From the NCBI GenBank assembly GCA_902632935.1, contig CACPEJ010000002.1:62001-126000 (forward strand): 64,000 bases of DNA, in the 5' to 3' direction. The DNA is from an uncultured Pelagibacteraceae bacterium. Lineage in GTDB: Bacteria > Pseudomonadota > Alphaproteobacteria > Pelagibacterales > Pelagibacteraceae. Shown one piece after another: positions 6,830-33,335 of the stretch. The notes under the pieces were generated by a model. It made no database searches, was not told the DNA's origin, and saw nothing but the letters and a program-made list of their open reading frames with translations. Both the position numbers and the translations under genes were made by a program. Each line of letters begins with the position of its first letter. Within the stretch, counting starts at the first letter, position 1.

Positions 6830-7573
6830 ATGAATAAATCATCTTTTTTTATCATTGGACAACATGCTGTAATTGAGGCTCTTCGTAACCCTAAAAGAAA
6901 AGTTTTAAGAGTATTTTTAACTGAGGAAAGTAAGAAAAATATTCATAAAAAAAGTCCCAATAAAAACTTATTAAATGATGTCAAAATATATTTTAAAACA
7001 AAAAAAGAACTTGATAAATATAGCAATAAAGAAAACTTACAACATCAAGGGTATGTTGCAGAAATTGAGCATTTACAAAAACCAATACTTAAAGAATACA
7101 TTAAAGAAAAAAATGAGATGACATTAATTTGTCTTGATGGTGTCACTGATCCAAGAAACATAGGATCTCTAATTAGAAGTGCAGCTTCCTTTAATATTGA
7201 CGGAGTGATTATTAAAGAAAGGAACTTCCCTAGCGAAAGTAAACTTTTGTATAAGGCAGCAAGTGGAGCGATTGAATATATGAATATATTTGAAGTTTCA
7301 AATATAAATTCAACACTTAAAAATCTAAAAGAAAAAAATTTTTGGGTCTATGGTTTTGATGGAAATGGAAAAAAAGATTTTACAGATATTCAATGGAAGG
7401 GAAATAATATTTTATTGTTTGGATCAGAAGGATCTGGTATGCATAAACATACATCTAAATATGCAGATTTTTTAGTTAAGATTGAGATAAATGAAAAAAT
7501 TGAGAGCCTAAATATATCAAATAGTGCCGCAATTGTATTTCATCATTTAAGTTATCTAAAAAAAAAGAGTTGA
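6830..7573 (+). CDS. rlmB: SpoU/TrmH-family 23S rRNA 2'-O-ribose methyltransferase (RlmB-like)
   Basis: IIGQHAVIEALRNPKRKV...LDGVTDPRNIGSLIRSAASFNIDGVI...LLFGSEGSGM...LNISNSAAIVFHHL. Confidence 0.9.
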   Translation: MNKSSFFIIGQHAVIEALRNPKRKVLRVFLTEESKKNIHKKSPNKNLLNDVKIYFKTKKELDKYSNKENLQHQGYVAEIEHLQKPILKEYIKEKNEMTLICLDGVTDPRNIGSLIRSAASFNIDGVIIKERNFPSESKLLYKAASGAIEYMNIFEVSNINSTLKNLKEKNFWVYGFDGNGKKDFTDIQWKGNNILLFGSEGSGMHKHTSKYADFLVKIEINEKIESLNISNSAAIVFHHLSYLKKKS

Positions 7574-7606
7574 TTAATTAATAAATAATTAATAGTTATT
7601 GCGCAT

Positions 7607-7682
7607 GCCCTTGTAGCTCAGCTGGTAGAGCAATTGATTTGTAATCAATAGGTCCGCGGTTCGAATCCGTGCGGGGGCACCA
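7607..7682 (+). tRNA. tRNA-Thr(TGT)
   Basis: GCCCTTGTAGCTCAGCTGGTAGAGCAATTGATTTGTAATCAATAGG...GGTTCGAATCCGTGCGGGGGCACCA; anticodon TGT. Confidence 0.95.
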
Positions 7683-8453
7683 TTAAAAAGTTTCTCTTCT
7701 TAATTGTTCTATTTTGATTTTCTTTTGCAAACTTCTGTTTCTATCGTAGAGAAGATTAAATTTAATTTTTTGATTAGTTCTAACCATAATATTTCTAGCA
7801 TTCCTCACCTCAATATTATCTGCAACAGCAGAAATTGGTCTTTTTTTTGAATTTAAATTTTTGATATTTATTTTAGATTTATCACTTACAATTTTACCCT
7901 TCCATCTCCTTGGCCTAAATGGACTTATTGGAGATATAGATAATCTTTTTGAATTTAAACTTAATATGGGTCCGTGAACTGATAAATTATAAGCAGTACT
8001 TCCAGCGGGTGTAGAAACCAGCACACCATCAGATACAAGTTTTTTTATGACCTGTTTAGAACCATGATAAATAGATAAAGAAGCAGCTTGCCTACTTTGT
8101 CTTAAAATTGAAACTTCATTTATAGCTATATGTTTTTTAATTCGATTTTTATTATTTCTAACTATCATTTCTAGTGGAGAAATGGTTATCATTTTTGCTT
8201 TATGTAAATTACTTATGATATTTTTTGATGAAAATTTATTCATCAAAAATCCATAACTTCCAGAATTTACACCATAAAAAAACTTTTTTAATTTTCTATT
8301 CTTCTTCAGTGTTTGAAGCATAAAGCCATCACCACCAATAACAATAATAATGTTAGATCTTTTAACTTTATTTTGATTAATTTTTTTTTGGATTATTGAT
8401 TTTAATTTTAAAGATCTTAGATTTTTATCAGAAATGATTTGAACCCTAGTCAT
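7683..8453 (-). CDS. nadK: NAD kinase
   Basis: IIIVIGGDGFMLQTL, VSDGVLVSTPAGSTAYNLSVHGPIL motifs of ATP-NAD kinase. Confidence 0.92.
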   Translation of the reverse strand: MTRVQIISDKNLRSLKLKSIIQKKINQNKVKRSNIIIVIGGDGFMLQTLKKNRKLKKFFYGVNSGSYGFLMNKFSSKNIISNLHKAKMITISPLEMIVRNNKNRIKKHIAINEVSILRQSRQAASLSIYHGSKQVIKKLVSDGVLVSTPAGSTAYNLSVHGPILSLNSKRLSISPISPFRPRRWKGKIVSDKSKINIKNLNSKKRPISAVADNIEVRNARNIMVRTNQKIKFNLLYDRNRSLQKKIKIEQLRRETF

Positions 8454-8457
8454 TTAA

Positions 8458-8543
8458 TGGTGCCCTCGGCCAGACTCGAACTGGCACTCCGCAAGCGGCA
8501 AGGATTTTAAGTCCTTTGTGTCTACCAATTTCACCACGAGGGC
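8458..8543 (-). tRNA. tRNA-Leu(TAA)
   Basis: GCCCTCGTGGTGAAATTGGTAGACACAAAGGACTTAAAATCC...variable arm...GAGTCTGGCCGAGGGCACCA; anticodon TAA. Confidence 0.94.
8504..8543. repeat. 40-bp direct repeat, copy 1 (5' half of intact tRNA-Leu)
   Basis: attttaagtcctttgtgtctaccaatttcaccacgagggc identical to 10149-10188. Confidence 0.95.
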
Positions 8544-8613
8544 TCCTAGAGTTTGCATTGTTATATCTGTCTTTTGTTTTAACACAACGCATTTATCTTG
8601 TTCAAGAATTATC

Positions 8614-8635
8614 GGTGACTAACTGGTGACTAACT
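8614..8635. repeat. Tandem duplication of 11-bp unit ggtgactaact
   Basis: Two exact head-to-tail copies, 71 bp outside the tRNA-Leu 5' end. Confidence 0.9.
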
Positions 8636-8648
8636 GATTTTTAATTAT

Positions 8649-9398
8649 CTACTTATTAAACTTATTATATAAAAAATATGCGTAATTTGCAGAGGCTTTT
8701 GAATATATTTGGTAAATATCATTCGTACCTGCAGTCTTTTGAATTTGAATATAATTATCTCCATTTTCAAAATTTGTAATTCTTGTAAAATTTACTGAAT
8801 AAGACTTAATTTGACCTAAAAAAATTATTCTTTTATTAGTTAAATAAAGATCACCTACATCTTTAATAACGTGATGATCTGGAGACCCTTGAGACCATAT
8901 TACATGAGTTTTAAAACAAATCTTTTCTCCTTTTTTTTTAGTAACCTTATCATCAGCAATATCTTTAATTTTCTTTTTTTTTAATGACTCTTGATGCTCG
9001 TCTAACCCCTCATGATAAACAAGAATATCTAAAACGTCTGAATAAGAAAAATTTTCTGTTTCAAGTTTTTTAGCAATTTTATCAACATCTTTAGTGTTTA
9101 CTTTTTTTTTAGAAATTTCTTTATATTTATTAAAAATATCTCCATATTCTCTGTTGTACTTATCTCTTATATTAGATCTAAATAATTTTCCCATTAAGTT
9201 TCCAAAACCCATCCATAAAGCGCTAAACCAAAAAATTATTATAAAAAGAAGTATAGCTGATCCATCTTCACCATAGGGAAGAAAAAAAGGTAAAAAAATA
9301 AATAAGAAACAAAGAATTACACTCAAAGTCCAGCCAGACTCTAATTCTTTAGCTTCTATTTCTGATCTTCTCTCTTCATAAATTGGACTAATTATCAT
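8649..9398 (-). CDS. Membrane protein, two predicted TM helices and a C-terminal PH/GRAM-like domain
   Basis: Hydrophobic LSVILCFLFIFLPFFLPYGEDGSAILLFIIIFWFSALWMGF; C-terminal GDLYLTNKRIIFLGQIKSYSVNFTRITNFENG resembles bacterial PH/GRAM-type domains. Confidence 0.6.
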   Translation of the reverse strand: MIISPIYEERRSEIEAKELESGWTLSVILCFLFIFLPFFLPYGEDGSAILLFIIIFWFSALWMGFGNLMGKLFRSNIRDKYNREYGDIFNKYKEISKKKVNTKDVDKIAKKLETENFSYSDVLDILVYHEGLDEHQESLKKKKIKDIADDKVTKKKGEKICFKTHVIWSQGSPDHHVIKDVGDLYLTNKRIIFLGQIKSYSVNFTRITNFENGDNYIQIQKTAGTNDIYQIYSKASANYAYFLYNKFNK

Positions 9399-10127
9399 TT
9401 ATTTTTTTTTGTTTAACAGTTCTGAAAATCCTGCAGCGATTATACCCGTAGGGATCGCAACTATACCAATTCCAGATATTGAAATTATAACTGTACAAAT
9501 CTTTCCAATTATTGTGATTGGATAAACATCTCCATAACCAATTGTAGTTAAAGTAATTGTTGACCACCAAAAAGCTCTAGGGATACTTCCAAATGCTTCG
9601 GGTTGTGCGCTACCCTCTGCAAGGTAGATTACAATAGATGTAAATAAGATTATTATGACAGTAATGGCTAAACTAAATAAAATTTCATTCTTTCTTTTAT
9701 CGATCACTAAACTTATATTTTTTAGTGCAGGTATTCTGTCCTTAAATTTTGCTAATTTTAACATTCTTAAAATTCTCAAGATTCTAAACAAAAATGTTTC
9801 ATTTAATCCTGGGAATATTAGAGAAGGTATGAATGAAATTAGATCTATTAATGAATGAAATGAAAATACAAATTTAATTTTTCCAATAAATCCTTGGTAT
9901 TTTTTTGAGTAACCACAAGTAAATAGTCTCAATAAATACTCAATTAAAAAAATGTAAGATAATGTTAAATTTATATTAAAAAAAAGTTCTGGGTTCTTCG
10001 ACTTTATAGTTGGCTCTGACTCAATGATAATAATAATGAATGAAAAAATAATTATGGAAAAAATTAACTTTTGAGAAAAAGATAGATTTTTTTTCTCATT
10101 AAATAATTGTAAATATATCTTTTTCAT
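9399..10127 (-). CDS. Six-TM voltage-gated-type potassium channel
   Basis: Selectivity filter TLTTIGYGDVYP, S4-like FRILRILRMLKLAKFK, S1-S6 hydrophobic pattern. Confidence 0.9.
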   Translation of the reverse strand: MKKIYLQLFNEKKNLSFSQKLIFSIIIFSFIIIIIESEPTIKSKNPELFFNINLTLSYIFLIEYLLRLFTCGYSKKYQGFIGKIKFVFSFHSLIDLISFIPSLIFPGLNETFLFRILRILRMLKLAKFKDRIPALKNISLVIDKRKNEILFSLAITVIIILFTSIVIYLAEGSAQPEAFGSIPRAFWWSTITLTTIGYGDVYPITIIGKICTVIISISGIGIVAIPTGIIAAGFSELLNKKK

Positions 10128-10148
10128 TGAAAAATCTGAACTTAGATA

Positions 10149-10188
10149 ATTTTAAGTCCTTTGTGTCTACCAATTTCACCACGAGGGC
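10149..10188. repeat. 40-bp direct repeat, copy 2 (orphan tRNA-Leu 5' half)
   Basis: Exact copy of 8504-8543; no 3' half alongside. Confidence 0.95.
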
Positions 10189-10310
10189 ATTAATGAATTT
10201 CATAAGTGTTTATGCTATTATTTATAATTGAACAAGATGAATAAGTAAATTTTTTATTCTTTAGATCTATCTAACAATAAAGTGTATAAGATAATTATTT
10301 ACTTAAAAAT

Positions 10311-11045
10311 ATGTCAACTAAAAACAAAAACTATTTTCAAGATATTGAAAAGTTATTACCAAAAAAAAATGCACCTATAAAACTCGTACTTAATAATCCA
10401 GGCGCTTTTCTACCAAGAGAGCAAATAATTAATTTTCTGTCTTATTATGAAGTTTTTAAATTAGTCAAGGATTTACCTGGCTCTATTGCGGTTGTCGGTT
10501 GTTTTATTGGTAATAATTTATTCTATTTTTCAAAATTACTTGATTATTTTAATCCAAACGTACCCGATTTTAGATGCTATGGATTTGACACATTTAATAA
10601 TTATGACAAGAAAATAAATAAAAAATTTGACTTAAAGGGTATAAATTTTTTAAAAAAAAGAAGAGTGAATTTCAAAATTGATAAAGATTTAATAAAACAG
10701 TTATTAAAGCTTAATAATCTTGAAAGTCCATTGGATAGATATGATAGAACAATAATTTACATAGGTGATGCCTCAAAAAATATAAAGAAGTTCAAAAAAC
10801 AAGAACCAGGTGTAAGATTTAAGTTAATTGAAATAGATACAAACACCTTTTTATCAACTAAGAAAAGTTCCGACCAAATTATAGATCGTTTAATAAAGGG
10901 AGGATATCTGCTCTTTAGAGGTTTTGGAAATAGGTTTTGGGAAGGTGAGTCTAGAGTTGTAGAAAATTTAATAAAAAAAAAAAATTTAAAAATTGTAAAA
11001 CTTGAAAATAAGGGAAGATATCCTGCAGTTGTATTAAGGAAATAA
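10311..11045 (+). CDS. TylF/MycF-like SAM-dependent methyltransferase (putative)
   Basis: FLSYYEVFKLVKDLPGSIAVVGCFIGNNLFYFSKLLD...CYGFDTFNNY; GDASKNIKKF...RFKLIEIDTN pattern. Confidence 0.6.
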   Translation: MSTKNKNYFQDIEKLLPKKNAPIKLVLNNPGAFLPREQIINFLSYYEVFKLVKDLPGSIAVVGCFIGNNLFYFSKLLDYFNPNVPDFRCYGFDTFNNYDKKINKKFDLKGINFLKKRRVNFKIDKDLIKQLLKLNNLESPLDRYDRTIIYIGDASKNIKKFKKQEPGVRFKLIEIDTNTFLSTKKSSDQIIDRLIKGGYLLFRGFGNRFWEGESRVVENLIKKKNLKIVKLENKGRYPAVVLRK

Positions 11046-11048
11046 TTT

Positions 11049-11924
11049 ATGAAGAAAGTTTATCTAGATAATTTAAAAAATTTTAAATTTTATGGTAAAA
11101 AAAACAAAAAAAATCTTCCTTTAGATGGCTATTATAAAATTAAAAAATTAAAAATTAATGTCAAAAATGAGATATATAAACTATTAAAAAGTAAAAAAAA
11201 CTTAACCTATAGTGATAAAAAAACATACGAATGGTATGATAATAATTTTAAAGATTACGACTCTAAATTATACTACACATTTAAAGCACTCTGTTCAAAA
11301 GAAAACCAGGGGAGAAAGAAAATACTAGAGTCAATACCTCTCAAAGGAAAAAATTTTTTAGAAGTCGGATGTGGAACTGGTAGAGACTCAATTAACATAT
11401 TAAAATATAAGAAATACAGCAATTATTATTTTCAAGATTTCCACTTTGGGATAATTAATATTTTTAAAAACAAAATTAATAAATTAAAAGTTAAGAACAG
11501 AAAAATAAATTTTTTTCAAAGCGATGCGGCAGACCTGCCATTTAAAGATAATAAATTTGATACATTATTTCATTTTGGAAGCTTAAATACTTTTGGTAAT
11601 ATCAAAAAATGCTTATTAGAGTTTGTTAGAGTTACCAAACACGGGGGTTCCATTATAGTTGGAGATGAAAGTATTGGTCTTTGGTTAAGAAACAAAGAAT
11701 ATTCCAAGATCTTAATGCACTCTAATCCTCATTTTAAATATAAATTACCTTTAGAGTACTTGCCCGAGCAAGCAGATAATGTGGAGTTGAAGTATTTATT
11801 TAAAAATACATTTTATTTAATCAAATTTAAAGTAAACAAAATTAAACCCAGATTTAATTTTAATTTCAAAATTGTCTCAAAAAGAGGTGGAACATACCTT
11901 TCTAGGTATAAAAATAAATTTTAG
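11049..11924 (+). CDS. Class I SAM-dependent methyltransferase
   Basis: FLEVGCGTGRDSINIL motif I, DAADLPFKDNKFDTLFHFGSLNTF. Confidence 0.8.
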   Translation: MKKVYLDNLKNFKFYGKKNKKNLPLDGYYKIKKLKINVKNEIYKLLKSKKNLTYSDKKTYEWYDNNFKDYDSKLYYTFKALCSKENQGRKKILESIPLKGKNFLEVGCGTGRDSINILKYKKYSNYYFQDFHFGIINIFKNKINKLKVKNRKINFFQSDAADLPFKDNKFDTLFHFGSLNTFGNIKKCLLEFVRVTKHGGSIIVGDESIGLWLRNKEYSKILMHSNPHFKYKLPLEYLPEQADNVELKYLFKNTFYLIKFKVNKIKPRFNFNFKIVSKRGGTYLSRYKNKF

Positions 11925-12868
11925 ATTTTGAGATCAGCAATAAAAAAACCTTCTTTTCCAAAACCATTACCACAAAATAAAATTTTGTATTTATTTTTTA
12001 TTGAAAAAACATGAGGATAACATTGCATTTTCTTAATTTCATTTTCTAGTTTGCCTGAAAATTTTAATAGATCATCTTTTCTTTTCCAATTTACTAAATT
12101 TGTTGAAACCGAATAACCCAACTTATAACTATTTTTTGAATCTTTCCTATAATCGAACCCTTTTCGATATGAAAAAATCATATGATATTTTTTCTTATAA
12201 TAAAAGATGGAAGGACTAGTTTGACATTCATTATTTGTTTTTGATTTAATAATATTTTTATTTACAATATCCCAATTTAGACCATCACTTGAGCTAGCAA
12301 ATTTTATTTTATAAATAGGCTCTAGTTTTTTTTTATATATTGTCCACTTAACACCAGATAAAAAATACATTAGATATCTTCTTTTAAATTTGTAAACCAT
12401 AGGGCAAGCATTAAGAAATAAATTATCCTTTTTTGAGGTAATGATTGGAGATTTAAAGATTTTACTAAAATTTGATCCATCATTACTTTTTGCCACACCT
12501 ATTGCCCAATCGAATGGTATTGACTCTTTTCGTGTCCACCCACAAAAATACATATGATATTTTTTTTTAATTTTAATTACTGATCCCAACATATTTCCAA
12601 ATTCATTGAATTCACCTAGTGCACCAAGAGATATTATTGGCTTTTTTGAAACTTTCAAAATTGAAAAATTTTTTTTATCAAAATCAGCATAAGCGGAATA
12701 GCTTATAAAATTTCCCTCTTTCGATTTTTTTTCTCTGGTAGAAAAATAAATTCTAAAAAATTTAGGAAATTTTACTAAATACGGACATTGTGCGTGAGAA
12801 ATAATCCATTTCTTATTATTAATTTTTTTAATATCTAATATTTTTTTTCTATTAATGATTTTTATCAT
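11921..12868 (-). CDS. Five-bladed beta-propeller glycosidase-like protein (GH43/GH32-like fold, putative)
   Basis: Repeated propeller blades (YHMYFCGWTRK, YLMYFLSGVKW, ASSSDGLNW, YHMIFSYRKG, QCYPHVFSIKNKYKILFCGNGFG); paralog of 13703-14584. Confidence 0.55.
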   Translation of the reverse strand: MIKIINRKKILDIKKINNKKWIISHAQCPYLVKFPKFFRIYFSTREKKSKEGNFISYSAYADFDKKNFSILKVSKKPIISLGALGEFNEFGNMLGSVIKIKKKYHMYFCGWTRKESIPFDWAIGVAKSNDGSNFSKIFKSPIITSKKDNLFLNACPMVYKFKRRYLMYFLSGVKWTIYKKKLEPIYKIKFASSSDGLNWDIVNKNIIKSKTNNECQTSPSIFYYKKKYHMIFSYRKGFDYRKDSKNSYKLGYSVSTNLVNWKRKDDLLKFSGKLENEIKKMQCYPHVFSIKNKYKILFCGNGFGKEGFFIADLKI

Positions 12869-12975
12869 AATTATTAATAATTCAACAAGGGTAATAAGTA
12901 AATTTTTTTTATTATATCTCTCTATGCTCTAGTCATCGTCTGGTTGTCCCATAGATGGTCATATTTAACCATGAC

Positions 12976-13698
12976 TTATAGTTTTTTTTTTAATTTTTTA
13001 AATTCTAATATTGATTTTATATAATATTTTTTTTTTCCTCTTGTTATAACTGCTCCTTTTAAGGATTGTTGGGAAAATATTTTATTTTTGATTGTATTAA
13101 ATGAGTCCTTTTTCAAATTTATTGTATAATCACTTTCAGTTAAAAAATTATTGTATTTACCTTTTCTTATTTTTTTTATTTTAATTCTCTTTTTAAAATA
13201 CAAATATAATTTTCTTATTAGTTTTTCCAATTTCTTTTCCATTAACATTCTAAGCTGTAAAACATTATATCTCTTATTTAGACTGATTTTTTCTTGAAAA
13301 ATTATTTCACCTAAATCTATTTTTTCATTAATTTTATGTAATGTGAAATATGTATTTTTATCACCGTTTAATATTGTCCAAACTTCTGGAATTGGACCTC
13401 TGTTAAATTTAAGTGAGCCTCTGTGTAGATTGAAGAATTGATGTTTATCAAGTAATTTTTTGGAAATTATCAAAGGACACTCATAAATTATAAAAATCTC
13501 ATTATTTTTTTTTTTATTTAATATTTTTTTTTCTAAATTGTTTAGATTACTACAATAATTTATTTTCTTATTTATTCTTTTTTTAATAGAATGATACCTT
13601 TTACGGGTGATACAGAATATTTCATTTAATCTAAAATAATCATTATTATTTAGTAAATTGATTATCTTGAGATTATCTCCAATATAATTTATTTCCAT
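12976..13698 (-). CDS. Formyltransferase-family protein
   Basis: FNLHRGSLKFNRGPIPEVWTILNGDKNTYFTLHKINEKIDLGEIIFQEKISL typical of Formyl_trans_N. Track ORF extends to 13758, but internal ATG at 13698 (MEINYIGDNLKI) avoids overlap with the upstream gene. Confidence 0.75.
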   Translation of the reverse strand: MEINYIGDNLKIINLLNNNDYFRLNEIFCITRKRYHSIKKRINKKINYCSNLNNLEKKILNKKKNNEIFIIYECPLIISKKLLDKHQFFNLHRGSLKFNRGPIPEVWTILNGDKNTYFTLHKINEKIDLGEIIFQEKISLNKRYNVLQLRMLMEKKLEKLIRKLYLYFKKRIKIKKIRKGKYNNFLTESDYTINLKKDSFNTIKNKIFSQQSLKGAVITRGKKKYYIKSILEFKKLKKKL

Positions 13699-13702
13699 AG
13701 AA

Positions 13703-14584
13703 TTAATCTTTTTGTAATTCAGATATGCTAAACCCACCTCTACCAAAGTAGTTACCACAATAAGCCATTAAAATTTTATTTTTGTATTTAAAAACGTAAG
13801 GATAACATTGCATGCCACTATTCCAACTTTGTAAAACTCTTTTATTATATTTGATTTTTTCTGGTTTTGACCAGACACTTAAATTTTTTGATTTTGAAAA
13901 ATAAATTTTATATCCATTCTTTTGATTTCTAAAATCTTTATGTTTTCTTTTACAAAAAAAAACATAGAATTCAGAATTTATTTTTATAATTGTTGGCCTA
14001 TTCGTAACTTCATTTTTTTCTACTTTATACAAACTTCTAATTTTCTTATTTTCGTATTTTCTTATTTGATATATATTCTCATATTTATTTTTGTATAAAA
14101 ACCACTTAAGTCCTAACGAAAAGAGGAAGATTTTTTTTCTTTGGTTTTTAAAAATAAAAGGACCGTTAGAAAAAATTTTATTTTTAAAATAAACCTTTGT
14201 TAATTCCAAAGTATCTTTTTTTAGTTTACCTTTGAGAACATAAGTTTTGTGAGGATATTTTGAGGTTTTTTTCCACCCAGTCAAAAAAAAATTATTGCAA
14301 CTTTCAAAACACCCAGGCATCAAGCCATCATTAGCATATTTCTTTTTAAGCGAATTTTCTTTAACTGATATCTCGCATAATTTTTTTGATAACTGAAATT
14401 TTGAATTGATCTCAATATAACCAACTCTAGCTTTTGACAAACCTATTTTTGCTTCCCTTTTTTTTCTAAAAGAAAAAAAAATTTTTAATTTATTTTTTTT
14501 TAAGACAATAGTTGGAACTTGTGGCCAAAAATTATCTCTTTCATTTAATCTGTAGATAAATAAATTTTTGGAAACTCTAAACAT
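13703..14584 (-). CDS. Beta-propeller glycosidase-like protein, paralog of 11921-12868
   Basis: C-terminus QCYPYVFKYKNKILMAYCGNYFGRGGFSISEL aligns with QCYPHVFSIKNKYKILFCGNGFGKEGFFIADL of the other copy. Confidence 0.55.
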   Translation of the reverse strand: MFRVSKNLFIYRLNERDNFWPQVPTIVLKKNKLKIFFSFRKKREAKIGLSKARVGYIEINSKFQLSKKLCEISVKENSLKKKYANDGLMPGCFESCNNFFLTGWKKTSKYPHKTYVLKGKLKKDTLELTKVYFKNKIFSNGPFIFKNQRKKIFLFSLGLKWFLYKNKYENIYQIRKYENKKIRSLYKVEKNEVTNRPTIIKINSEFYVFFCKRKHKDFRNQKNGYKIYFSKSKNLSVWSKPEKIKYNKRVLQSWNSGMQCYPYVFKYKNKILMAYCGNYFGRGGFSISELQKD

Positions 14585-14615
14585 TAATCAAATTATAATA
14601 TCCAATATTTTCTCT

Positions 14616-16079
14616 TTATTTATAATTTTCATAATAATCATTAATAATTCTATTTCTGTCAATTTTACCATTCGAATTTTTTGGGAGGTTTTTTAATATA
14701 ATAATTTCTGTAGGTTTCATGTATTTTGGTAATTTTTGATTAATTTTATTTTTTATATTTTTAATATTTTTAGTAACTACAAAACATATGAGCTTCATAT
14801 TTTCATTATTAGAATTTTTTAAATAGATGCAATTTTCTAAAACTATGTCAATATCATTAATTCTACTTTCGATGTCTTCGATTTCAATTCTATTTCCTAG
14901 ATATTTTATTTGATTATCAACTCTTCCCTGAAAATAAAGTTTTCCATTTTCCTTCTTTATTAAATCTCCAGTCTTGAAGCAAGGTATACCACTATGATTT
15001 AAGAAAAATTTTTTTTTTGTTAATTTATTGTCTTTATAATAACCGAGTCCTACCCCAGGTCCTTTTAAAAGTAATTCTTTATTCTTTCCGTATTTTTTAT
15101 TTGATATCAGCTCATATTTAAAATTTTCGGTAATATTTCCAATTGAGACTAAATTATTATTATCCTTTAAATCTTCAATTTTGACATGTTTTATATTTGA
15201 AATACAAGTACATTCAGAAGGACCATAAACATTTATCAATTTTGCCTTATCAGTTTTTTGAAAAAGTTTAGCTAATTTTTTTTTGGGGAAACCCTCACCT
15301 CCAAATATTATAAATTTATAAAATTTTAAATACTTCTTTTTTACTAAATCTAAATTAATTAAAAAGATTAATATTGATGGCACTGAAAACCAAATTGTAC
15401 ATTTTTTGTTATAAAAATATTTAAGGCAAGAAAATAAATTGTTAGTATTTTTAATTTCTAATGGACAGATTGATGCTCCATTCATTAAAGAAATAAAAAA
15501 ATCAAAGACAGCATTATCAAAATATATTGGATTTATTTGAGTAAAAATATCTTTTGAATTTACTTTAAATTTTTTTTTTGCCCATTTGTTAAAACTCTCA
15601 ATATTTTTATGAGAAATACATACACCTTTCGGAGAGCCTGTTGATCCAGAGGTAAATATTACATATGCAATATCATCATTTTTAATTATATAACTCTTCT
15701 CTTCTATAAAAAAATTTTTATCAATTTTATTAATTAAAAATTTTTTTTTATCTCTAATTTTATTGTTAACTGTATCAATTACTAAATCAGGTTTATACTT
15801 AAACATGATTTTTTGATAATCTTCATTTTTGATATCAGGGTCAATACATGCATATGGAATACCAAATTTTAAACAAGCAATCATTGATGCATAACCCTCC
15901 AAAGATTTATTGTTGAAAATTAAACAAAATTTTATTTTTGAATTATCAAAAATATTTGTAATTATGTAGTTGCTTGCATTATTTAATTCTTCATAAGTAA
16001 TTGTAGAATTCTCTAAAATGATGCATTTATTTTTTGGACTATTTCTTACAATTTTTAAAAAACTTTTAATAAAATTCAT
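14616..16079 (-). CDS. AMP-dependent synthetase/ligase (NRPS adenylation-domain-like)
   Basis: DIAYVIFTSGSTGSPKGVCISHKN, YGPSECTC, FKTGDLIKKENGKLYFQGRVDNQIKYLGNRIEIEDIE, SNGKIDR C-terminal lysine motif. Confidence 0.92.
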   Translation of the reverse strand: MNFIKSFLKIVRNSPKNKCIILENSTITYEELNNASNYIITNIFDNSKIKFCLIFNNKSLEGYASMIACLKFGIPYACIDPDIKNEDYQKIMFKYKPDLVIDTVNNKIRDKKKFLINKIDKNFFIEEKSYIIKNDDIAYVIFTSGSTGSPKGVCISHKNIESFNKWAKKKFKVNSKDIFTQINPIYFDNAVFDFFISLMNGASICPLEIKNTNNLFSCLKYFYNKKCTIWFSVPSILIFLINLDLVKKKYLKFYKFIIFGGEGFPKKKLAKLFQKTDKAKLINVYGPSECTCISNIKHVKIEDLKDNNNLVSIGNITENFKYELISNKKYGKNKELLLKGPGVGLGYYKDNKLTKKKFFLNHSGIPCFKTGDLIKKENGKLYFQGRVDNQIKYLGNRIEIEDIESRINDIDIVLENCIYLKNSNNENMKLICFVVTKNIKNIKNKINQKLPKYMKPTEIIILKNLPKNSNGKIDRNRIINDYYENYK

Positions 16080-16085
16080 CTATAG

Positions 16086-16802
16086 TTATAATCCACCATC
16101 TATTTGTAAGACTTTTCCATTAAAATAATCATTTTTAATTATAAATAATATTGCATTTAATATTTCATTTTTTTTGCCTAATCTTTTAATAGGTATCTCA
16201 TTAATAATTTTTTTTAATTTCTGTTTTTTTGTTTTGTTGTTCGTTGATTGTAAATTAATGTATCCTGGAGCAATACAAGCAAATCTGATTTTATGATTTG
16301 AAAATTCTTTTGACCATGTTTTAGTTAGAATTTCTATTGATTTTTTACTGGCAGAATATCCTGACTGACCAACAACTCCATTAGAATTTACTGAGGAAAA
16401 ATTTATTATCAAACTTTCTTTTGAGGATTTTTCAATCATATGTTTAACAAAATAACCCGAAGTTAAAAAGGGGATTATTACATTTTGTTTAAAAATATTT
16501 ATAAGGTTTTTCTCAGAGTGAACTTTTTTTTTAATAAAATCATATATTAACTCGTTATGTATCAAGCCATTACAATTTATTAATATCTTTATCTTTGGAT
16601 ACTTTTTAAAAATTTTTTTTAAACTTTTTTCAATTATTAACTTATTATTTAGATCAATTTTAAAAAAATTTTTTATGTCTTTATTTTTGTTTTTATCTAC
16701 AACAATTGGGTCTAATTTTTTTTGAAATAAATAGTTGGTAATTACTGACCCTATAGATCCAGACCCTCCAATTATTAATATTTCATTTTTTTTTAATTTC
16801 AT
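16086..16802 (-). CDS. SDR-family oxidoreductase
   Basis: ILIIGGSGSIGSVI, NFSSVNSNGVVGQSGYSASK (SYK-type), APGYINLQST, LQIDGGL terminus. Confidence 0.88.
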   Translation of the reverse strand: MKLKKNEILIIGGSGSIGSVITNYLFQKKLDPIVVDKNKNKDIKNFFKIDLNNKLIIEKSLKKIFKKYPKIKILINCNGLIHNELIYDFIKKKVHSEKNLINIFKQNVIIPFLTSGYFVKHMIEKSSKESLIINFSSVNSNGVVGQSGYSASKKSIEILTKTWSKEFSNHKIRFACIAPGYINLQSTNNKTKKQKLKKIINEIPIKRLGKKNEILNAILFIIKNDYFNGKVLQIDGGL

Positions 16803-17016
16803 TTTTTTTTATCAATTTCATTATTGAAGCATAATTTTGTATTTTTTTTATATTTTTAAAATTTGTTTTTATATTAAATCTATCTCTTAAATGCACGAGT
16901 AAATTCATATGTAAAAGAGAATCCCAATTTTTATATTTTGAAAATTTTTTTTCATTATCAACAATTTTTTCATCTAAAATTTTTTCTATTTCATTTTTAA
17001 TTTTATTATTGTTCAT
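16783..17016 (-). CDS. Acyl/peptidyl carrier protein
   Basis: 77 aa with KNWDSLLHMNLLVHLRDRFNI (DSL phosphopantetheine-site pattern); overlaps genes on both sides. Confidence 0.8.
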   Translation of the reverse strand: MNNNKIKNEIEKILDEKIVDNEKKFSKYKNWDSLLHMNLLVHLRDRFNIKTNFKNIKKIQNYASIMKLIKKNEIKKK

Positions 17017-17677
17017 TTTTTAAATATTTCAAAAAATCCAAACTTTTAATTTCTATTTTTTTTGATGTAGAATTTATTATCGTACTTTCATTTCTAATTT
17101 TTCCTGTTACTAAAGCCCCTGCCCCAACAAATATACTATTCGCTATCGAGCTATTATTGCTAATTATTGAGTTAGATCCAAAAAAATTGCAATTACCTAT
17201 AGAAGTGTCACCAGAAATAACAGTCCCAGATGACACCCAATTAAAATTATTTAATCTCACATTGTGTGAAATTACAGAATTACTCCAAATAATATTTCCA
17301 TTCCCGATTTTTGATCCAGGATTTATAGACACATTATCAAGAAGAATATTATTTTCTCTAATCATAACGTCATTCGGAACTTGAGCGCTATTATCTATAT
17401 AGTTAACAAAATTATAACCTTCCGATTTTAAGCTCTCAAAAATTTTTTTCCTTATATTATTCATTTCCAAATACCCTATTGCAGTAATAATTTTATATTT
17501 TTTTGGGCTAAATTTTTTTTTCAATTCCTCTAAAGAATAAATAGGTCTATTATTAAATTTTTTTGATTTAATAAATTTTTTTTTTGAGGCATAAGCAATG
17601 ATATTGAATTTTTTTTTTAGATATGTGCTTAAAATTTTGGAAATATTACCATTACCAAATACTATGATTTCTTCCAT
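17006..17677 (-). CDS. NeuD-like sugar O-acyltransferase (left-handed beta-helix)
   Basis: N-terminal IIVFGNGNISKILSTYL and C-terminal hexapeptide repeats (VMIRENNILLDNVSINPGSKIGNGNIIWSNSVISHNV). Confidence 0.8.
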   Translation of the reverse strand: MEEIIVFGNGNISKILSTYLKKKFNIIAYASKKKFIKSKKFNNRPIYSLEELKKKFSPKKYKIITAIGYLEMNNIRKKIFESLKSEGYNFVNYIDNSAQVPNDVMIRENNILLDNVSINPGSKIGNGNIIWSNSVISHNVRLNNFNWVSSGTVISGDTSIGNCNFFGSNSIISNNSSIANSIFVGAGALVTGKIRNESTIINSTSKKIEIKSLDFLKYLKNEQ

Positions 17678-17727
17678 TTTTTTTAATTAATATAGTTTTC
17701 AATAATTTTTTATTATATTATATTTAG

Positions 17728-18406
17728 ATGATTGTCTCTGCCATGCAACCTTATTATTTTCCATCAATTCATTATTATCAATTAATTTTTTCAAGTGATA
17801 TATTTGTAATATTAGATAATGTAAATTTTATAAATAGAGGGTTTATACATAAAAATTATTTTATTGATAGAGCAACAAAAGAAAAAAAAATTTTTAATTT
17901 GATTATAGAAAAAAAATCTCAAAATAAATTAATCAAAGATTTAAAATTAATAGATTACAAAAAAAAGTTTTGAAAATTTAAAAAAAAATTATGAAAAAAA
18001 CAAAAATTTTAAAGATGTTTACGAAAAAATTTTTATAAAAAAAATATTTAAAAAAGAATATAATTTGGTGATAGATTTGTTGGTAATTTCAATTAAAGAA
18101 ATAAGTAATTTATTAGGAATTAATACAAAAATAATTTTGTCTAGCTCTTTAAAACAAAATAAATTTACTGCACAAAAAAGAATATTAGATTATGTAAAAC
18201 AACTTAATGGAAAACAATATATAAATTTTATTGGTGGCTCTCACTTATACGACAAAAAATTATTTGAGGAAAATTCAATCAAATTAAAATTTTTAAAAAA
18301 TAATTCACATAAACATTCAAAAATATCAATTTTGCACACCCTAGCTAAATATGGTTTAAAAGAGACAAAAAATAATTTTATAAAAAATTATGAATTAGTT
18401 GAATAA
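17728..18406 (+). pseudogene. WbqC-like protein, frameshifted at an A8 run
   Basis: MIVSAMQPYYFPSIHYYQLIFSSDIFVILDNVNFINRGFIHKNYF (WbqC N-terminus); second ORF continues with INFIGGSHLYDKKLFEENSIKLKFL. Deleting one A from gattacAAAAAAAAgttttgaa joins both frames. Confidence 0.75.
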
Positions 18407-21794: not shown

Positions 21795-23069
21795 TTATTT
21801 GAAGGTTTCTGATTTTAATATTCCAAATTTTTTTACAAATCTTAATTTTTTTCTTATCACTTGAGGAATAATCGGAATTACATTTGATCTTAGATACTGG
21901 TCAAAATTATAAATTAATTCCTTTTTATAGGAGTAATTTTTTGCACAATGTAAGGCATGACTATAAATTCCATTAAGATCATTATAAGCATAATGATCTT
22001 GATGCATTTGAAGCTCACTAAGGCATTTTTCAAACATTTGTTTCCAGTTTTTTAGTTTTCTCTGTTTAAGTATTTTTGGGTTTTTAAAAAAATCCTCATT
22101 TTCAAAATCATATTTAGTTACTCCATTAATGAAACCAAAATGAATCCCTAAATCATTTTTCTTGCACCATTTTATTAAGTTATACATTCCATCATCTACT
22201 AAACTGGTTTTCATTACATTGCATGCTATTGAAACATTCCAGTTTTTATTATTTATTTTTGCAAATTCTTTTAGATCTAGAATGTTTTTTTCCAGTTTTG
22301 ACCATATTGATCCGACTCTAAGTTTTTCTAAAGCTTTTCCTGCTGTCTCCATGCTTATAGATATTATCATGTTATCAAACACAGATAATTTTTTTATATA
22401 TCTGTGTAACAGAGCTCCATTTGTGAATAAAGATAATGTTGTGTCATAAAAATCACTATCTTCTACAATGTAATCAATAAATTTCCTTGACTCTTTAATA
22501 ACTAAAGGTTCACCACCTATCAAATGTATTGTTGAGGCTTTGTTAATTATATCTTTTTGTTTTATAAGTTTTTCAGCACTTACTGTAGAGTTAAAATTTT
22601 GATCTCTTTCAGGATTTTGAAAACAAAAGGTACACTTGAAATTACATTGATTACCAAAATTAATATATATTTTTGTGGGAAAAGATTCTAAAATAATTTT
22701 TTTTTGAAAAAATTCTTTTTTTGCGAGTTCAAGATTTGCTAGTTTTTCTAGATATATTTTTTCATTTTTTGGATTTTTAATTTTAATATTTTCCCAAGTC
22801 TTTTCTTGAAGTACATTGCCTGGAACATCTTTTTTACCAATTAACCATTCACAATTGTTACATCCTTGAGCGTTTTTTTCTTCACCTGTGATAATTCTTC
22901 TATAATTTTGAAAATATGCACCATTCCAAATTTTTTTAATATCAAGAGTGTTATTAGAGTTAAAATCAAATTTATCTATATCTTCTTTATAAAAACAACA
23001 TGGTCTAATTGTTTGATGATAATCAAACTGCATTTCAAACCATGGTTGTAAACAATCTTCTAATTTCAT
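21795..23069 (-). CDS. Radical SAM protein with N-terminal SPASM-like segment
   Basis: INFGNQCNFKCTFCFQNPER (CxxxCxxC), HLIGGEPLV; N-terminal RPCCFYKED...IWNGAYFQNYRRIITGEEKNAQGCNNCEW. Confidence 0.85.
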   Translation of the reverse strand: MKLEDCLQPWFEMQFDYHQTIRPCCFYKEDIDKFDFNSNNTLDIKKIWNGAYFQNYRRIITGEEKNAQGCNNCEWLIGKKDVPGNVLQEKTWENIKIKNPKNEKIYLEKLANLELAKKEFFQKKIILESFPTKIYINFGNQCNFKCTFCFQNPERDQNFNSTVSAEKLIKQKDIINKASTIHLIGGEPLVIKESRKFIDYIVEDSDFYDTTLSLFTNGALLHRYIKKLSVFDNMIISISMETAGKALEKLRVGSIWSKLEKNILDLKEFAKINNKNWNVSIACNVMKTSLVDDGMYNLIKWCKKNDLGIHFGFINGVTKYDFENEDFFKNPKILKQRKLKNWKQMFEKCLSELQMHQDHYAYNDLNGIYSHALHCAKNYSYKKELIYNFDQYLRSNVIPIIPQVIRKKLRFVKKFGILKSETFK

Positions 23070-24506: not shown

Positions 24507-25589
24507 TTATAGTTTTTCAATATCCCTACAAAAACTTTTAAACTGAGTTATCTTCATGTTATCATTTATATAAAATCCAATTAAGTTTTTTTTAGTTTTT
24601 AGAGTGTTTATCATTTTAGTTTTTGGGTATTTTTGGAATATATTCACTTTATGCATAACATTATTAGACCACCATCTATTTAAGATTATATTATAGCTTT
24701 GACATAGCTTTATAAATTTACGATCAATGCTTAAATTTTTATAAAAAGTAATCTTGTTCGAGATAAATTGTTTTTTGTAATGAGCAATTTTAAACTTTGT
24801 TTTAAGAGAATTTTTTACAATCGAAGATCGTTTTTTTAAATTTTTAATTTTTTTGTTCATGTCATCAAAATTTGAAAGAAGTATTGCAGCATCATACTCT
24901 GAGAATTTCCCGTTAAATCCAATTATGTTAGATTTATTGTTTTTTTCACTTATTCCAAAATTAGTAATATTTTCAAATATTTTTTCATATTTTTTAGGAC
25001 ATATTATTAAACCAGACTCATTAGATCCTAAAGTTTTTGTAGGATGAAAACTACAAGTTATAAATATCTTATTATTAATTTTTTTTTTCAGATTTAAAAA
25101 TGTATCGGCAGCATCATAAATAATTGGAATATTAATTTCCTTTTGAAATTTATTTAAATATTCAATATCAACTGGATATCCAAACGGAGAAACAACCATT
25201 AAAAATGCTATATCATTTCTCTTTGATAAAATTTGTTTTACTAATTTTAAATCAATTACTAAATTATCATCATTTATATCGACAAAATAAGGTTTAAAAC
25301 CTGAATCAATTATTGAGATTGGGTTAGAGTAAAAGCTAAAAGATGGACATAAAACATATTTTTTCTTTAATTTTGTATTTAAATACTTTGTAATAGTTAA
25401 CAATGATGAGTGTCCACTAGAGGTAAGTATGACACTGTTATCTTTATAATTTAAGTTTGTTTCAATTTTTTTTTTTAATTCTAAATAAAGTGGTCCAAAA
25501 TTAGAATAATATTTGTTATTATCCACTTTTTTTAGATATTTGTTTATCTTGCCTCTTCTTGCTAAACTAAATTGACCGAAAAATTTCAT
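24507..25589 (-). CDS. DegT/DnrJ/EryC1/StrS-type aminotransferase
   Basis: SVILTSSGHSSLLTITKYL, CPSFSFYSNPISIIDSGFKPYFVDIND, IPIIYDAADTF, FITCSFHPTKTLGSNESGLIIC. Confidence 0.85.
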   Translation of the reverse strand: MKFFGQFSLARRGKINKYLKKVDNNKYYSNFGPLYLELKKKIETNLNYKDNSVILTSSGHSSLLTITKYLNTKLKKKYVLCPSFSFYSNPISIIDSGFKPYFVDINDDNLVIDLKLVKQILSKRNDIAFLMVVSPFGYPVDIEYLNKFQKEINIPIIYDAADTFLNLKKKINNKIFITCSFHPTKTLGSNESGLIICPKKYEKIFENITNFGISEKNNKSNIIGFNGKFSEYDAAILLSNFDDMNKKIKNLKKRSSIVKNSLKTKFKIAHYKKQFISNKITFYKNLSIDRKFIKLCQSYNIILNRWWSNNVMHKVNIFQKYPKTKMINTLKTKKNLIGFYINDNMKITQFKSFCRDIEKL

Positions 25590-29375: not shown

Positions 29376-30164
29376 GTGAATTATTTAAGAGAATTTTTAA
29401 AATGCATTAATAAACCTGAAATATGGATTTTTTATTCACATAAGAGAATAGCTTTAAAATATAGAGATACAATATTAGGTCCATTCTGGAATGTGATTAA
29501 TAGTATTTTTTTAATTTCAGTATTATCGTTAAGTTATTTTTTATTTCTAAATCCTGATGATTTCAAAAATTTTATATATAGATTGTCGATATCAATTTTT
29601 TTATGGTTATTTATTTCTACAATTTTAAGAGAGTCAACTTCAACACTTAAGAATAAATTAGAAATACTTAGCGAAAAAAAAATAGATATCAAAAATTTTG
29701 TTTGTGAAAATATTTATACAAATTTTATCATTTTTATACACAGCTTACCTATAGTAATAATATTATTTTTTATTTCTGATTTTAAATTACAATTCAATTT
29801 GATTTTATCTTTTGTTGGATTATTTTTAGTTATAATCAATTTACTTCTCATAAGCTATTTCATTACTATTCTTTCGGCAATGTACAAAGATATAGAAAAG
29901 ATTGTTGAAAATTTGGTGTATGCTATTTTTTTTGCGACTCCCATCATATGGAGTGAAAATATGGTTTCAGAAAAAATTCAAAATTTATTAATTTTTAATC
30001 CTATTTATCATTTTATTGTATTATTTAGAGATCCATTAATGAATAATGTTGATGGAAAATTTTATGAAAGTTTTTCAATATGTCTTTTATTAGCGCTAAT
30101 AGTATTTATCATTAACCTTAAATTGTTTAAATATTTAGAAAAAAGAATTGTATTATATTTATGA
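29376..30164 (+). CDS. Polysaccharide ABC exporter permease (Wzm-like)
   Basis: ALKYRDTILGPFWNVINSIFLISVLSLSYFLF; six-TM ABC2-type profile; translationally coupled to ATPase. Confidence 0.85.
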   Translation: MNYLREFLKCINKPEIWIFYSHKRIALKYRDTILGPFWNVINSIFLISVLSLSYFLFLNPDDFKNFIYRLSISIFLWLFISTILRESTSTLKNKLEILSEKKIDIKNFVCENIYTNFIIFIHSLPIVIILFFISDFKLQFNLILSFVGLFLVIINLLLISYFITILSAMYKDIEKIVENLVYAIFFATPIIWSENMVSEKIQNLLIFNPIYHFIVLFRDPLMNNVDGKFYESFSICLLLALIVFIINLKLFKYLEKRIVLYL

Positions 30165-30841
30165 TTATATTTGAAAATGTTAGTCTGAATTACCCTATCT
30201 CAACGAAAAATTTATCACTAAGAAAAAATATAATAAATGGTATTTTTGGATCAAATATCAAAAAAAATTATATTGAGTCTTTAAAAAAAATTAATTTAAA
30301 ATTGGAAAAAGGTGTCTACGGACTTTATGGGGCAAATGGATCTGGAAAAACGTCATTACTAAAAGTTATAGCGGGCATTTACCCTCCTTCCTCAGGACAA
30401 ATTAAAGTAAATGGTTCCATTGGTTCAATGATTGATTTTCGTTTCGGATTAAGTAAAGATTTCACAGGAAATGAATGTATTGAATTAAGATTAATTGCCG
30501 AAGGTATAAACAAAGATAAGAGAAAAGAGTTAATCAATAAAATTAAAATTGAGACTGAACTTGGGGAATATCTTAATTTACCAATAAAAACTTATTCATC
30601 TGGAATGAAATTTAGATTAGCCTTTTTCACATCTTTAAACGTCCAAAGTGATATTCTATTATTAGATGAATGGATTGGAACCGCTGATCAAAATTTAAGA
30701 GACAAAGTTGATAAATTAATCTTAGAAAGAATTGCTCAATCAAAAATTACCCTTATTGCTTCGCACAATTTAGATAGGCTAAAAAAGATTTGTAATAATA
30801 TAATTTATTTTGAAAAAGGTGAAATTTCAAAAATTACTTAA
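30161..30841 (+). CDS. Polysaccharide ABC exporter ATPase (Wzt-like, lacks long C-terminal domain)
   Basis: GLYGANGSGKTSLLKVIAGIYPPSSGQI, YSSGMKFRLAFFTSLNVQSDILLLDEW. Confidence 0.88.
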   Translation: MIIFENVSLNYPISTKNLSLRKNIINGIFGSNIKKNYIESLKKINLKLEKGVYGLYGANGSGKTSLLKVIAGIYPPSSGQIKVNGSIGSMIDFRFGLSKDFTGNECIELRLIAEGINKDKRKELINKIKIETELGEYLNLPIKTYSSGMKFRLAFFTSLNVQSDILLLDEWIGTADQNLRDKVDKLILERIAQSKITLIASHNLDRLKKICNNIIYFEKGEISKIT

Positions 30842-30843
30842 AA

Positions 30844-32052
30844 TTACTCTTTTACGCTGCCGGCAGTTAGACCACTGACTAAATATTTTTCAAAATATAT
30901 GAAAATAAAAAGTACAGGTAAAGTAACAATTACTGAACCTGCCATTAAGTATTGACGCGGTGTTTCTGCATCCCCGCTTAGATATTGAATAGCTCTTGAT
31001 AAGGTAAATGATTTAGGACTATCTAAAAACATCAAAGAAAAAAGAAATTCATTCCAAGCTATCATAAAGACATAGAGTGCAACGGATGCAATAGCTGGCA
31101 AACTTAAAGGAATAATAATCTTTAAAATTATACCAAACCAGTTTTGACCATCCATAATACCCGCGTCTTCAATTTCTTTTGGAATACTTTTGAAATATCC
31201 TTGCAGCATGTATATTGCGACTGGCAAAGTAGTTGCTGTATAAACAATCAATAAACCAAAGATTGAGTTTCTTAATCCAAGTTGACTAAACACAGTATAT
31301 AAAGGGATGACTAATACTATAGCTGGAAACATATAAATGATTAAGATCGAAGTTGATAAAAAGTTTTTACCGAAAAAGTTTAATCTAGCAACAGCATAAG
31401 CTGCAGGGATTGCAAATAATAATGTGACAATAACAGTTCCGATAGAAACTGCTGAGCTTATTAAGATATATCTACCAAAATTATAAGTTTCAAAGATAAC
31501 AAAATAAGATTTGAACAACTCAGTTAAGCTTTTTGTAAAATCTAGACTAAAGTCTAAAGGATTAACTAATAAAGCGATCTGAGTTTTAAAACTGGTAACT
31601 AGCATAATGTAAAACGGGAATAAGATTACAAATGCAAAGAAAACAATGCCAAATAAGGTAATAAAATCAAAAATAATTTTTTCAGATATGAAATCTTCCT
31701 TTAAAGATTGCATATTATATTTTTTGAGTTTGTTCGTAAAAAATAAAGTAATTAAGAAAACTCCAAATATATACCAATATGGAGATGTCTCATTTAGGTA
31801 AAAATATGAAATTGAAAATATAAAAGATAATAAAAGAATCTTTATTAAGTTGTTAAGTTTATTACCGATTAAGACAAATGTTAAAGATAATAAAATACCA
31901 ATTAAGAATACAGGTGTGATGTTTAAATTAGTAAAACTTAAACCTTGTAGTGTGGCCATGATCTTCCAAATTGATAAAATACATGTCAGAAAAAAAGATG
32001 AAACGATTAAAAATATTGCAAGAGACTTAAACTTCATTAGCCCTCTTTCCAA
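30844..32052 (-). CDS. Carbohydrate ABC transporter permease (MalG/UgpE-like)
   Basis: EAA loop EIEDAGIMDGQNWFGIILKIIIPLSLPAIASVALYVFMIAWNEFLFSL. Confidence 0.9.
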   Translation of the reverse strand: MERGLMKFKSLAIFLIVSSFFLTCILSIWKIMATLQGLSFTNLNITPVFLIGILLSLTFVLIGNKLNNLIKILLLSFIFSISYFYLNETSPYWYIFGVFLITLFFTNKLKKYNMQSLKEDFISEKIIFDFITLFGIVFFAFVILFPFYIMLVTSFKTQIALLVNPLDFSLDFTKSLTELFKSYFVIFETYNFGRYILISSAVSIGTVIVTLLFAIPAAYAVARLNFFGKNFLSTSILIIYMFPAIVLVIPLYTVFSQLGLRNSIFGLLIVYTATTLPVAIYMLQGYFKSIPKEIEDAGIMDGQNWFGIILKIIIPLSLPAIASVALYVFMIAWNEFLFSLMFLDSPKSFTLSRAIQYLSGDAETPRQYLMAGSVIVTLPVLFIFIYFEKYLVSGLTAGSVKE

Positions 32053-33286
32053 TTAATCTAAAATAAATAATCATGAAACTAAGAAGTAACATCACAATGA
32101 CTATCGAAACTGCAGAGCCCATTCCAATATCTGAAACTGCAAATCCTTGTTGATAAACATTAATAGGTAAAGTTCTTGTGCCTGATGCCCCACCCGTTAA
32201 TAAAAAGATATCTTCAAATTTATTAAAGTTCCAAATAAACCTAATCATAAATAAAATTGAGATAATCGCTGTAATTTGAGGCAGTGTAATATGGATAAAT
32301 TTTTGAATAGGACTTGCTCCATCCACCTCTGCGGCTTCATACAAACTTTGTGGTATTGCTTGCAATCTTGCTAAAATAAATAGAAAGGCAAGTGGAAAAT
32401 AGCGCCAAATTTCAAAAAAAATGACTGTCGTTAAAGCCAACCTTAATTTAAATTCAAATCCTAAAATACTCATGGTTATGTATTTTTGGCCTAATAAATT
32501 TATTGGTTGTTCTATGATGTTAAAATTAACCAATAATGCGTTTAAAGTTCCGCTATTTGGATCTAGTAATAAAGTCCAAGTGTAAGCTAAAGCAACTACA
32601 GGGCCTACATATGGAAAAAGTAGAATACCTCGCATATAAGTTCGACCTTGAATATTTTGATTAACTAATTGTGCTGCTAAAATTCCAAAGATAATTGCAC
32701 CAACTGTGCCAAAAAAAGTGAAGTAAAATGTTGTTAAAAGTAATTCAACAAAATTATTTTCATAAAAAACTTTTTTAAAATTTTCTAAAGTAAAATTCGT
32801 AGTGAGTAACGGGTTATCTGCTTTACCGCTTAAAACTGGTTTTTGAGATTTAATTATTTTTTTATCAATTATTTCACCATTGTTATTCTGTATAGTTATT
32901 TCAAAATTTTCCCTGTATTTCGCCTGCCAATTTCCAAAATTACAAACAACTTTTTTAGATTGAAAATTACATCTTGAGTCAAGATTGACTGGTGAAACAT
33001 TTGTTGGAAATTTATCTTGAAACTGAACATTTCTTATTTCTTGAATTAAAGAACTATTTCGTAATTTATAAATAATTTTTAATTCTGATTGATTTTCTGA
33101 TATTGATTTTACAATTTTCTTTGCTCGAGGCTCTGGAATTCTAATATCTTTTAATTCAATGTCTTTGAAACTGATCCAAACATTGGCAAATATGGGAAAT
33201 AATACGATTGCAAAAACTAATAGGACTGCAGGTAAAACTAAAGTGTAAGCAGTTCTTTTTTCTAATTTTGATAATGAATCACTCAT
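32027..33286 (-). CDS. Carbohydrate ABC transporter permease (MalF/UgpA-like) with extended loop
   Basis: EAA loop LYEAAEVDGASPIQKFIHITLPQI; long hydrophilic segment between TM1 and TM2. Confidence 0.9.
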   Translation of the reverse strand: MSDSLSKLEKRTAYTLVLPAVLLVFAIVLFPIFANVWISFKDIELKDIRIPEPRAKKIVKSISENQSELKIIYKLRNSSLIQEIRNVQFQDKFPTNVSPVNLDSRCNFQSKKVVCNFGNWQAKYRENFEITIQNNNGEIIDKKIIKSQKPVLSGKADNPLLTTNFTLENFKKVFYENNFVELLLTTFYFTFFGTVGAIIFGILAAQLVNQNIQGRTYMRGILLFPYVGPVVALAYTWTLLLDPNSGTLNALLVNFNIIEQPINLLGQKYITMSILGFEFKLRLALTTVIFFEIWRYFPLAFLFILARLQAIPQSLYEAAEVDGASPIQKFIHITLPQITAIISILFMIRFIWNFNKFEDIFLLTGGASGTRTLPINVYQQGFAVSDIGMGSAVSIVIVMLLLSFMIIYFRLIGKRANEV

Positions 33287-33335
33287 GATAAAAAGCGGAT
33301 AATAAAATATTATCCGCTCTTTATAAATTTATTAT

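Follow-up and report, generated by a model that had tools for sequence, protein, structure and literature searches.

The 64,000-nucleotide stretch analyzed here, referred to below as the window, belongs to an uncultured SAR11 bacterium of the Pelagibacteraceae (assembly GCA_902632935.1, contig CACPEJ010000002.1, positions 62,001 to 126,000), whose draft genome comprises 772 kb and is 65% complete. Within it lies a compact gene cassette that a preliminary description, made from the letters alone, had read as a carrier-protein-based system for modifying a surface sugar. Open reading frames and domain searches recovered every gene named there, at the same positions. The cassette contains the following genes:

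17006..17677, minus strand: NeuD/PglD/VioB-type left-handed beta-helix N-acyltransferase (TIGR03570, E = 2e-42; profile of homologues; catalytic His)
16783..17016, minus strand: stand-alone acyl/peptidyl carrier protein (ACP) with a DSL serine (weak PF00550 match; Asp-Ser kept)
16086..16802, minus strand: FabG-like short-chain dehydrogenase/reductase (SDR), probably NAD(H)-dependent (PRK08217, 159 bits; catalytic residues)
14616..16079, minus strand: stand-alone adenylation (A) enzyme of the amino-acid type, resembling DltA and nonribosomal peptide synthetases (NRPS) (PF00501, TIGR01733, DltA; pocket DNFFIGVCI-K)
13703..14584, minus strand: predicted GH43/GH130-fold beta-propeller, copy 2 (homology to copy 1 at 11921)
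12976..13758, minus strand: Formyl_trans_N enzyme, probably a sugar N-formyltransferase (PF00551, E = 1e-8)
11921..12868, minus strand: predicted GH43/GH130-fold beta-propeller, copy 1 (PF04041, E = 1e-6; AlphaFold2; Foldseek)
17728..18406, plus strand: WbqC-family gene, frameshifted (open reading frames 17728-17973 and 18065-18406; PF08889, E = 2e-15 and 1e-15)

The NeuD and ACP genes overlap by 11 bases and the ACP and SDR genes by 20 bases. The GTG start called for the formyltransferase at 13758 is probably wrong, and an ATG near 13698, just past the propeller stop, fits better. WbqC does lie divergently beside the other genes, as had been described, but it is not intact: its halves match family positions 1-70 and 110-188, and the reading frame shifts between them, at a run of A near 17960. 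Draft-genome error, decay and phase variation are candidate causes of this frameshift.

The adenylation enzyme matched PF00501 (E = 9e-49) together with the C-terminal domain, scored 243 bits against TIGR01733, and contains the A core motifs. DltA was its top NCBIfam model, although at scores far below the cut-offs (291 versus 476 and 266 versus 560). The enzyme is rare: at E = 1e-40, only 4 of 297 genomes of the family and 5 of 397 genomes of the order contain a match. We read its pocket columns against GrsA numbering and found the code DNFFIGVCI-K in the window, in genomes G206, G479, G1081, and G399, and in a phage; G856, a 5.5-Mb high-GC alphaproteobacterium of another family, has DNFFVGVCI-K. 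All seven enzymes of this group therefore have DNFF(I/V)GVCI in common, despite global identities of ∼32 to 51%. When six of them were aligned, 7 of the 8 variable pocket columns proved invariant, compared to 25 of the 106 core columns of the region (hypergeometric P = 1e-4). Outgroup A domains with 29 to 31% identity to the window enzyme shared fewer pocket columns (G1084, 5/8; G056, 4/8; G029, 1/8; Vibrio, 2/8). Given this conservation within the group relative to the outgroups, the seven enzymes very probably act on one common substrate. Asp235 and Lys517, retained as in amino-acid-activating domains, point to an amino acid. The pocket is hydrophobic and bears a loose resemblance to branched-chain codes. 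The specificity prediction proposed in the preliminary description yielded a shared code and a probable amino-acid class of substrate.

A second A-ACP arrangement was observed at L012 (9323-11929), L013 (8029-11518), L023 (6960-11113), and L038 (8022-10665), where it accompanies an aminoglycoside N3-acetyltransferase-like (Antibiotic_NAT) protein. Two of these loci carry a formyltransferase as well, and the pocket codes read there differ from that of the window.

The ACP matched PF00550 at 17.1 bits, under the 20.8-bit cut-off. Its Asp-Ser is conserved in all eight homologous ACPs, and the source genome encodes the AcpS phosphopantetheinyl transferase, in agreement with the earlier suggestion that this serine can be phosphopantetheinylated. 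The SDR did not reach the equivalog cut-off of the FabG model TIGR01830 (115 versus 298 bits), and 3-oxoacyl-ACP reductases ranked first in a profile search of the PDB. Asn107, Ser136, Tyr149, Lys153, and Asp36 are invariant in six homologues. These results uphold the SDR assignment and the catalytic residues, but the label of reductase is uncertain because Asp36, predicted at the end of beta-2, favors NAD(H) as the cofactor.

NeuD scored slightly under the TIGR03570 cut-off (145 versus 160.8 bits), with PglD_N (PF17836) and Hexapep (PF00132) above theirs, and its catalytic His138 is invariant among homologues. A profile of six NeuD homologues gave PglD, PerB, and VioB as best matches, all of them 4-amino nucleotide-sugar N-acetyltransferases. 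At alignment column 151, His occurs in 33 of 33 sequences without an ACP and Gly in five of the seven with one; we rejected this column as a marker of ACP use because PglD also has Gly there and the two groups separate on the tree. In the formyltransferase, Asn110, His112, and Asp148 are intact, the closest solved relative is a dTDP-4-amino-4,6-dideoxyglucose formyltransferase, and sugar N-formyltransferases scored 46 bits versus 27 bits for the LgrA formylation domain, whose substrate is carrier-bound valine. Capping of an aminoacyl-ACP, as in LgrA, had some attraction, since in G1081 the ACP and SDR genes enclose the formyltransferase, and a formyltransferase is present at further SAR11 A-ACP loci. 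We set it aside as a minor possibility because the closest solved relatives act on sugars.

A search for the same neighborhood elsewhere, as the preliminary description had advised, found the set in both related and unrelated genomes. The A, ACP, SDR, NeuD, and propeller genes occur together in six of the seven loci with the pocket code DNFF(I/V)GVCI-K: the window and three further SAR11 loci (G206, L011; G479, L014; G1081, L022), G856 (L016), and a phage contig (G1531, L036). The complete cassettes show at least three different gene orders, and this recurrence of the same members in different orders argues for functional linkage. The window order, NeuD-ACP-SDR-A, is similar to the propeller-NeuD-ACP-SDR-GNAT-A of G856, which has the same methyltransferase, WbqC, and DegT near its cassette. 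An SDR of the cassette subfamily was absent at E = 1e-30 from 55 other relatives searched, and the cassette SDR had no match among plasmids. Given that the same gene set and predicted pocket recur in other bacteria and a bacteriophage, the cassette looks like a mobile decoration system.

The phage copy occupies positions 7052-13832 of the 99.9-kb IMG/VR contig IMGVR_UViG_3300037246_001176 (L036), in the order ACP-SDR-A-NeuD-methyltransferase-propeller-TylF-DegT. Tape-measure and head-tail adaptor genes border it at one end, and capsid, protease, portal, and terminase genes at the other. A second phage contig, of 52.7 kb, is 100% identical to it over the 17 kb compared, so the two are not independent evidence. 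A-domain matches in INPHARED were set aside; they resemble bacterial NRPS/dltA genes and come from phage-labeled, mostly unannotated records. Named phages gave no match to the propeller.

Viral contigs carrying the propeller numbered 66 (L047-L112), representing 47 non-redundant loci. WbqC lay within 5 kb of the propeller in 39 of these loci, often directly adjacent to it, NeuD in 30, and DegT in 29; three of the contigs were tested and gave a weak match to a T4-like late sigma factor, and some of the phages are apparently T4-like. A-ACP-SDR genes were present in only two of the 47, the 99.9-kb phage and L073 (3022-12025), the latter also with WbqC and a class I/II aminotransferase beside ACP-SDR-NeuD-propeller. 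WbqC, NeuD, and the propeller occur without A-ACP on rhizobial and Azospirillum plasmids too, near a dTDP-4-amino-4,6-dideoxygalactose transaminase in three of four cases. Judged by gene neighborhood, the propeller, WbqC, and NeuD form a linked module that many phages and rhizobial plasmids carry, and the adjoining transaminase supports a 4-amino sugar as the predicted acceptor.

Copy 2 of the propeller had no Pfam match by sequence search. An AlphaFold2 model of copy 1 (pLDDT 95) matched five-bladed glycoside hydrolase propellers in Foldseek (E = 2e-11). Together with the homologues, this model bears out, at the level of fold, the earlier call of a glycosidase-like beta-propeller, and the predicted fold of both copies is five-bladed and GH43/GH130-like. 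We found no invariant Asp or Glu across 45 propeller homologues; Asp88, present in 87% of them, is Asn in window copy 1. A model of a phage WbqC homologue (pLDDT 93) had no structural relative in the PDB below E = 0.001. The literature searched yielded no published role for WbqC or for the glycosidase-like propeller. Both are conserved partners of the cassette with a putative step in its pathway.

To the left, the gene set reaches to about 10311 and takes in copy 1 of the propeller and two methyltransferases; an aminotransferase and an exporter lie farther to the right:

11049..11924, plus strand: class I methyltransferase (homologues accompany the cassettes of a distant alphaproteobacterium and of the phage)
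10311..11045, plus strand: TylF-like sugar O-methyltransferase homologue (its L036 counterpart, with 30% identity, E = 1e-32, is itself a PF05711 TylF member, E = 3e-15)
24507..25589, minus strand: DegT/DnrJ aminotransferase, possible amino-sugar source (PF01041, E = 6e-32; DesI, LegC, and PseC models best)
29376..30841, plus strand: Wzm/Wzt-type polysaccharide ABC exporter (PF01061, weak, and PF00005; galactan Wzt/RfbE best)

These genes belong to a polysaccharide island at 10.3 to 30.9 kb, with a GC content of 22% versus 29 to 31% in the rest of the window, that also encodes glycosyltransferase-like proteins, other methyltransferases, and a nucleotide-sugar dehydrogenase and epimerase. The G479 and G1081 cassettes lie inside nonulosonic-acid clusters with PseB, a class III aminotransferase, an aldo/keto reductase, a PseG-like protein, NeuB, a CTP transferase, and a PseC-type aminotransferase. 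The glycan setting that had been proposed is thus confirmed, both by the exporter, glycosyltransferases, and aminotransferase here and by the nonulosonate genes around the relatives. The island further contains a Twitch-domain radical SAM protein (21795-23069; NF033640-like, below cut-off), and immediately to its right a sugar ABC transporter lies beside a sucrose-phosphorylase-like GH13 enzyme (30844-37640).

We infer that the cassette directs carrier-protein-dependent N-acylation of a surface amino sugar, likely by way of an amino acid, and we give this reading a probability of roughly 0.55. The adenylation enzyme would use ATP to activate a small aliphatic carboxylic acid, with an alpha-amino acid as the likeliest candidate, and load it onto the phosphopantetheine arm of the ACP, where the FabG-like SDR may oxidize or reduce the bound acyl group. 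The DegT-type aminotransferase would make a nucleotide-activated 4-amino-4,6-dideoxy sugar or nonulosonate precursor, and NeuD would move the acyl group from the ACP to the 4-amino group of that sugar. The formyltransferase and two methyltransferases could attach further groups before the modified sugar is built into a polymer and exported by Wzm/Wzt.

Several observations weigh against this pathway. An alpha-amino acid offers a FabG-like SDR no obvious substrate, the closest solved relatives of NeuD use acetyl-CoA, and the NeuD alignment yielded no residue marking ACP use. No nonulosonate genes were found in the window, the two NeuB genes of the source genome being on another contig; there, on contig C5 (L028), they sit in a second glycan cluster with a CTP transferase, an SDR, and a carbamoyltransferase-like gene. 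At the seventh locus, G399, the same pocket occurs with no partner gene on a 4.5-kb contig. Finally, phage L073 keeps ACP, SDR, NeuD, and propeller, but its ligase is of the acyl-CoA-ligase type and lacks Asp235. This pairing of a fatty-acid-type ligase with the same set would suit a pathway that involves no amino acid, in which a short hydroxy or keto acid such as acetoacetate or 3-hydroxybutyrate is loaded and then reduced by the SDR, so that NeuD would transfer a 3-hydroxyacyl group. O-antigens and flagellins commonly contain 3-hydroxybutyramido sugars, the SDR is nearest to 3-oxoacyl-ACP reductases, and flagellar islands of Aeromonas and enterobacteria, as described, combine an ACP with a 3-oxoacyl-ACP reductase and an AMP-ligase. 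The amino-acid type of the window enzyme, evident from its TIGR01733 and DltA scores (243 and 291 bits) and from Asp235 and Lys517, speaks against such a pathway, which we regard as unlikely, if a serious competitor.

The NRPS-like adenylation enzyme and free carrier could instead point to a product unconnected with any glycan, some small aminoacyl or peptide-like metabolite, and on a Vibrio plasmid a relative of the A enzyme does lie beside an ATP-grasp enzyme and a transporter. That product is improbable for copies surrounded by NeuD, propeller, WbqC, aminotransferases, glycosyltransferases, and nonulosonate genes. Still less credible is a locus decaying and non-functional in its source genome: WbqC is frameshifted and the GC content of the island departs from that of its surroundings, but the other genes are all open, the checked catalytic residues are intact, the low GC content is uniform, and the break, which falls in a homopolymer of a draft sequence, could have arisen in assembly. 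Very little speaks for esterification of the loaded amino acid to a polymer outside the membrane, as in the Dlt system. DltA is the best model for the adenylation enzyme, but the scores fall far under its cut-offs, the 65% complete genome contains no MBOAT/DltB (PF03062) match, and the operon has a cytoplasmic N-acyltransferase instead.

More tentatively, and at somewhat less than even odds, the propeller, WbqC, and NeuD may constitute an undescribed mobile amino-sugar module of SAR11, rhizobial plasmids, and phages, to which A-ACP-SDR would be a plug-in supplying an aminoacyl rather than an acetyl donor; phages with the complete version might decorate their virions or repaint the host surface. 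Surface sugars help to decide phage and predator attack on the most abundant ocean bacteria, and a phage that carries the complete set suggests that whole sugar-decoration pathways pass between hosts and phages. The cassette would give a starting point for understanding WbqC and the glycosidase-like propeller, which are widespread in glycan clusters, and its defined gene set and fixed pocket make aminoacyl transfer from carrier to amino sugar directly testable.

Individual parts of this system have counterparts elsewhere. Like the window, DltA/DltC D-alanylation combines a stand-alone amino-acid adenylation enzyme with a free carrier; unlike it, the window has an N-acyltransferase and an SDR and no DltB. 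PglD, PerB, and VioB share the fold and catalytic His of the window NeuD but draw on acetyl-CoA, whereas an ACP and an adenylation enzyme are near NeuD in all six cassettes. LpxA and LpxD, which share the left-handed beta-helix fold and use acyl-ACP as donor, provide a mechanistic precedent, although they belong to another family and are supplied by fatty acid synthesis. LgrA, like the window, has Formyl_trans_N beside an amino-acid adenylation domain and a carrier, and differs in that the window enzyme is nearer to sugar N-formyltransferases.

The closest arrangements are found in flagellin glycosylation islands. In 98 Aeromonas strains, group II polar-flagellin islands carry an ACP, a 3-oxoacyl-ACP reductase, and an AMP-dependent synthetase, in this order (orf1-orf3), between pse genes; the three were interpreted as fatty-acid synthesis genes (PMC7874193). 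Enterobacterial islands contain Acp, CaiC, FabG, LuxE, and LuxC, for which a liposugar product was proposed (PMC4875605). The preliminary description had not recognized the combination of window genes as a characterized pathway. For the ACP-reductase-AMP-ligase triplet, these two accounts provide a precedent. Compared by description only, the Aeromonas island has luxE/luxC alongside and no NeuD-propeller-WbqC set. Its triplet lies amid pseudaminic-acid genes; two SAR11 relatives lie within nonulosonic-acid clusters, and the window copy is outside one. The enterobacterial islands, as described, likewise place AMP-ligase, ACP, and FabG in a glycan island, with the ligase annotated as a fatty acid-CoA ligase. 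On these descriptions, we regard the window cassette as a variant of the Aeromonas and enterobacterial logic that uses a ligase of the amino-acid type with a fixed pocket and fixed partners. Its apparent novelties are this amino-acid-type signature, the constancy of its partners, and its presence in a phage.

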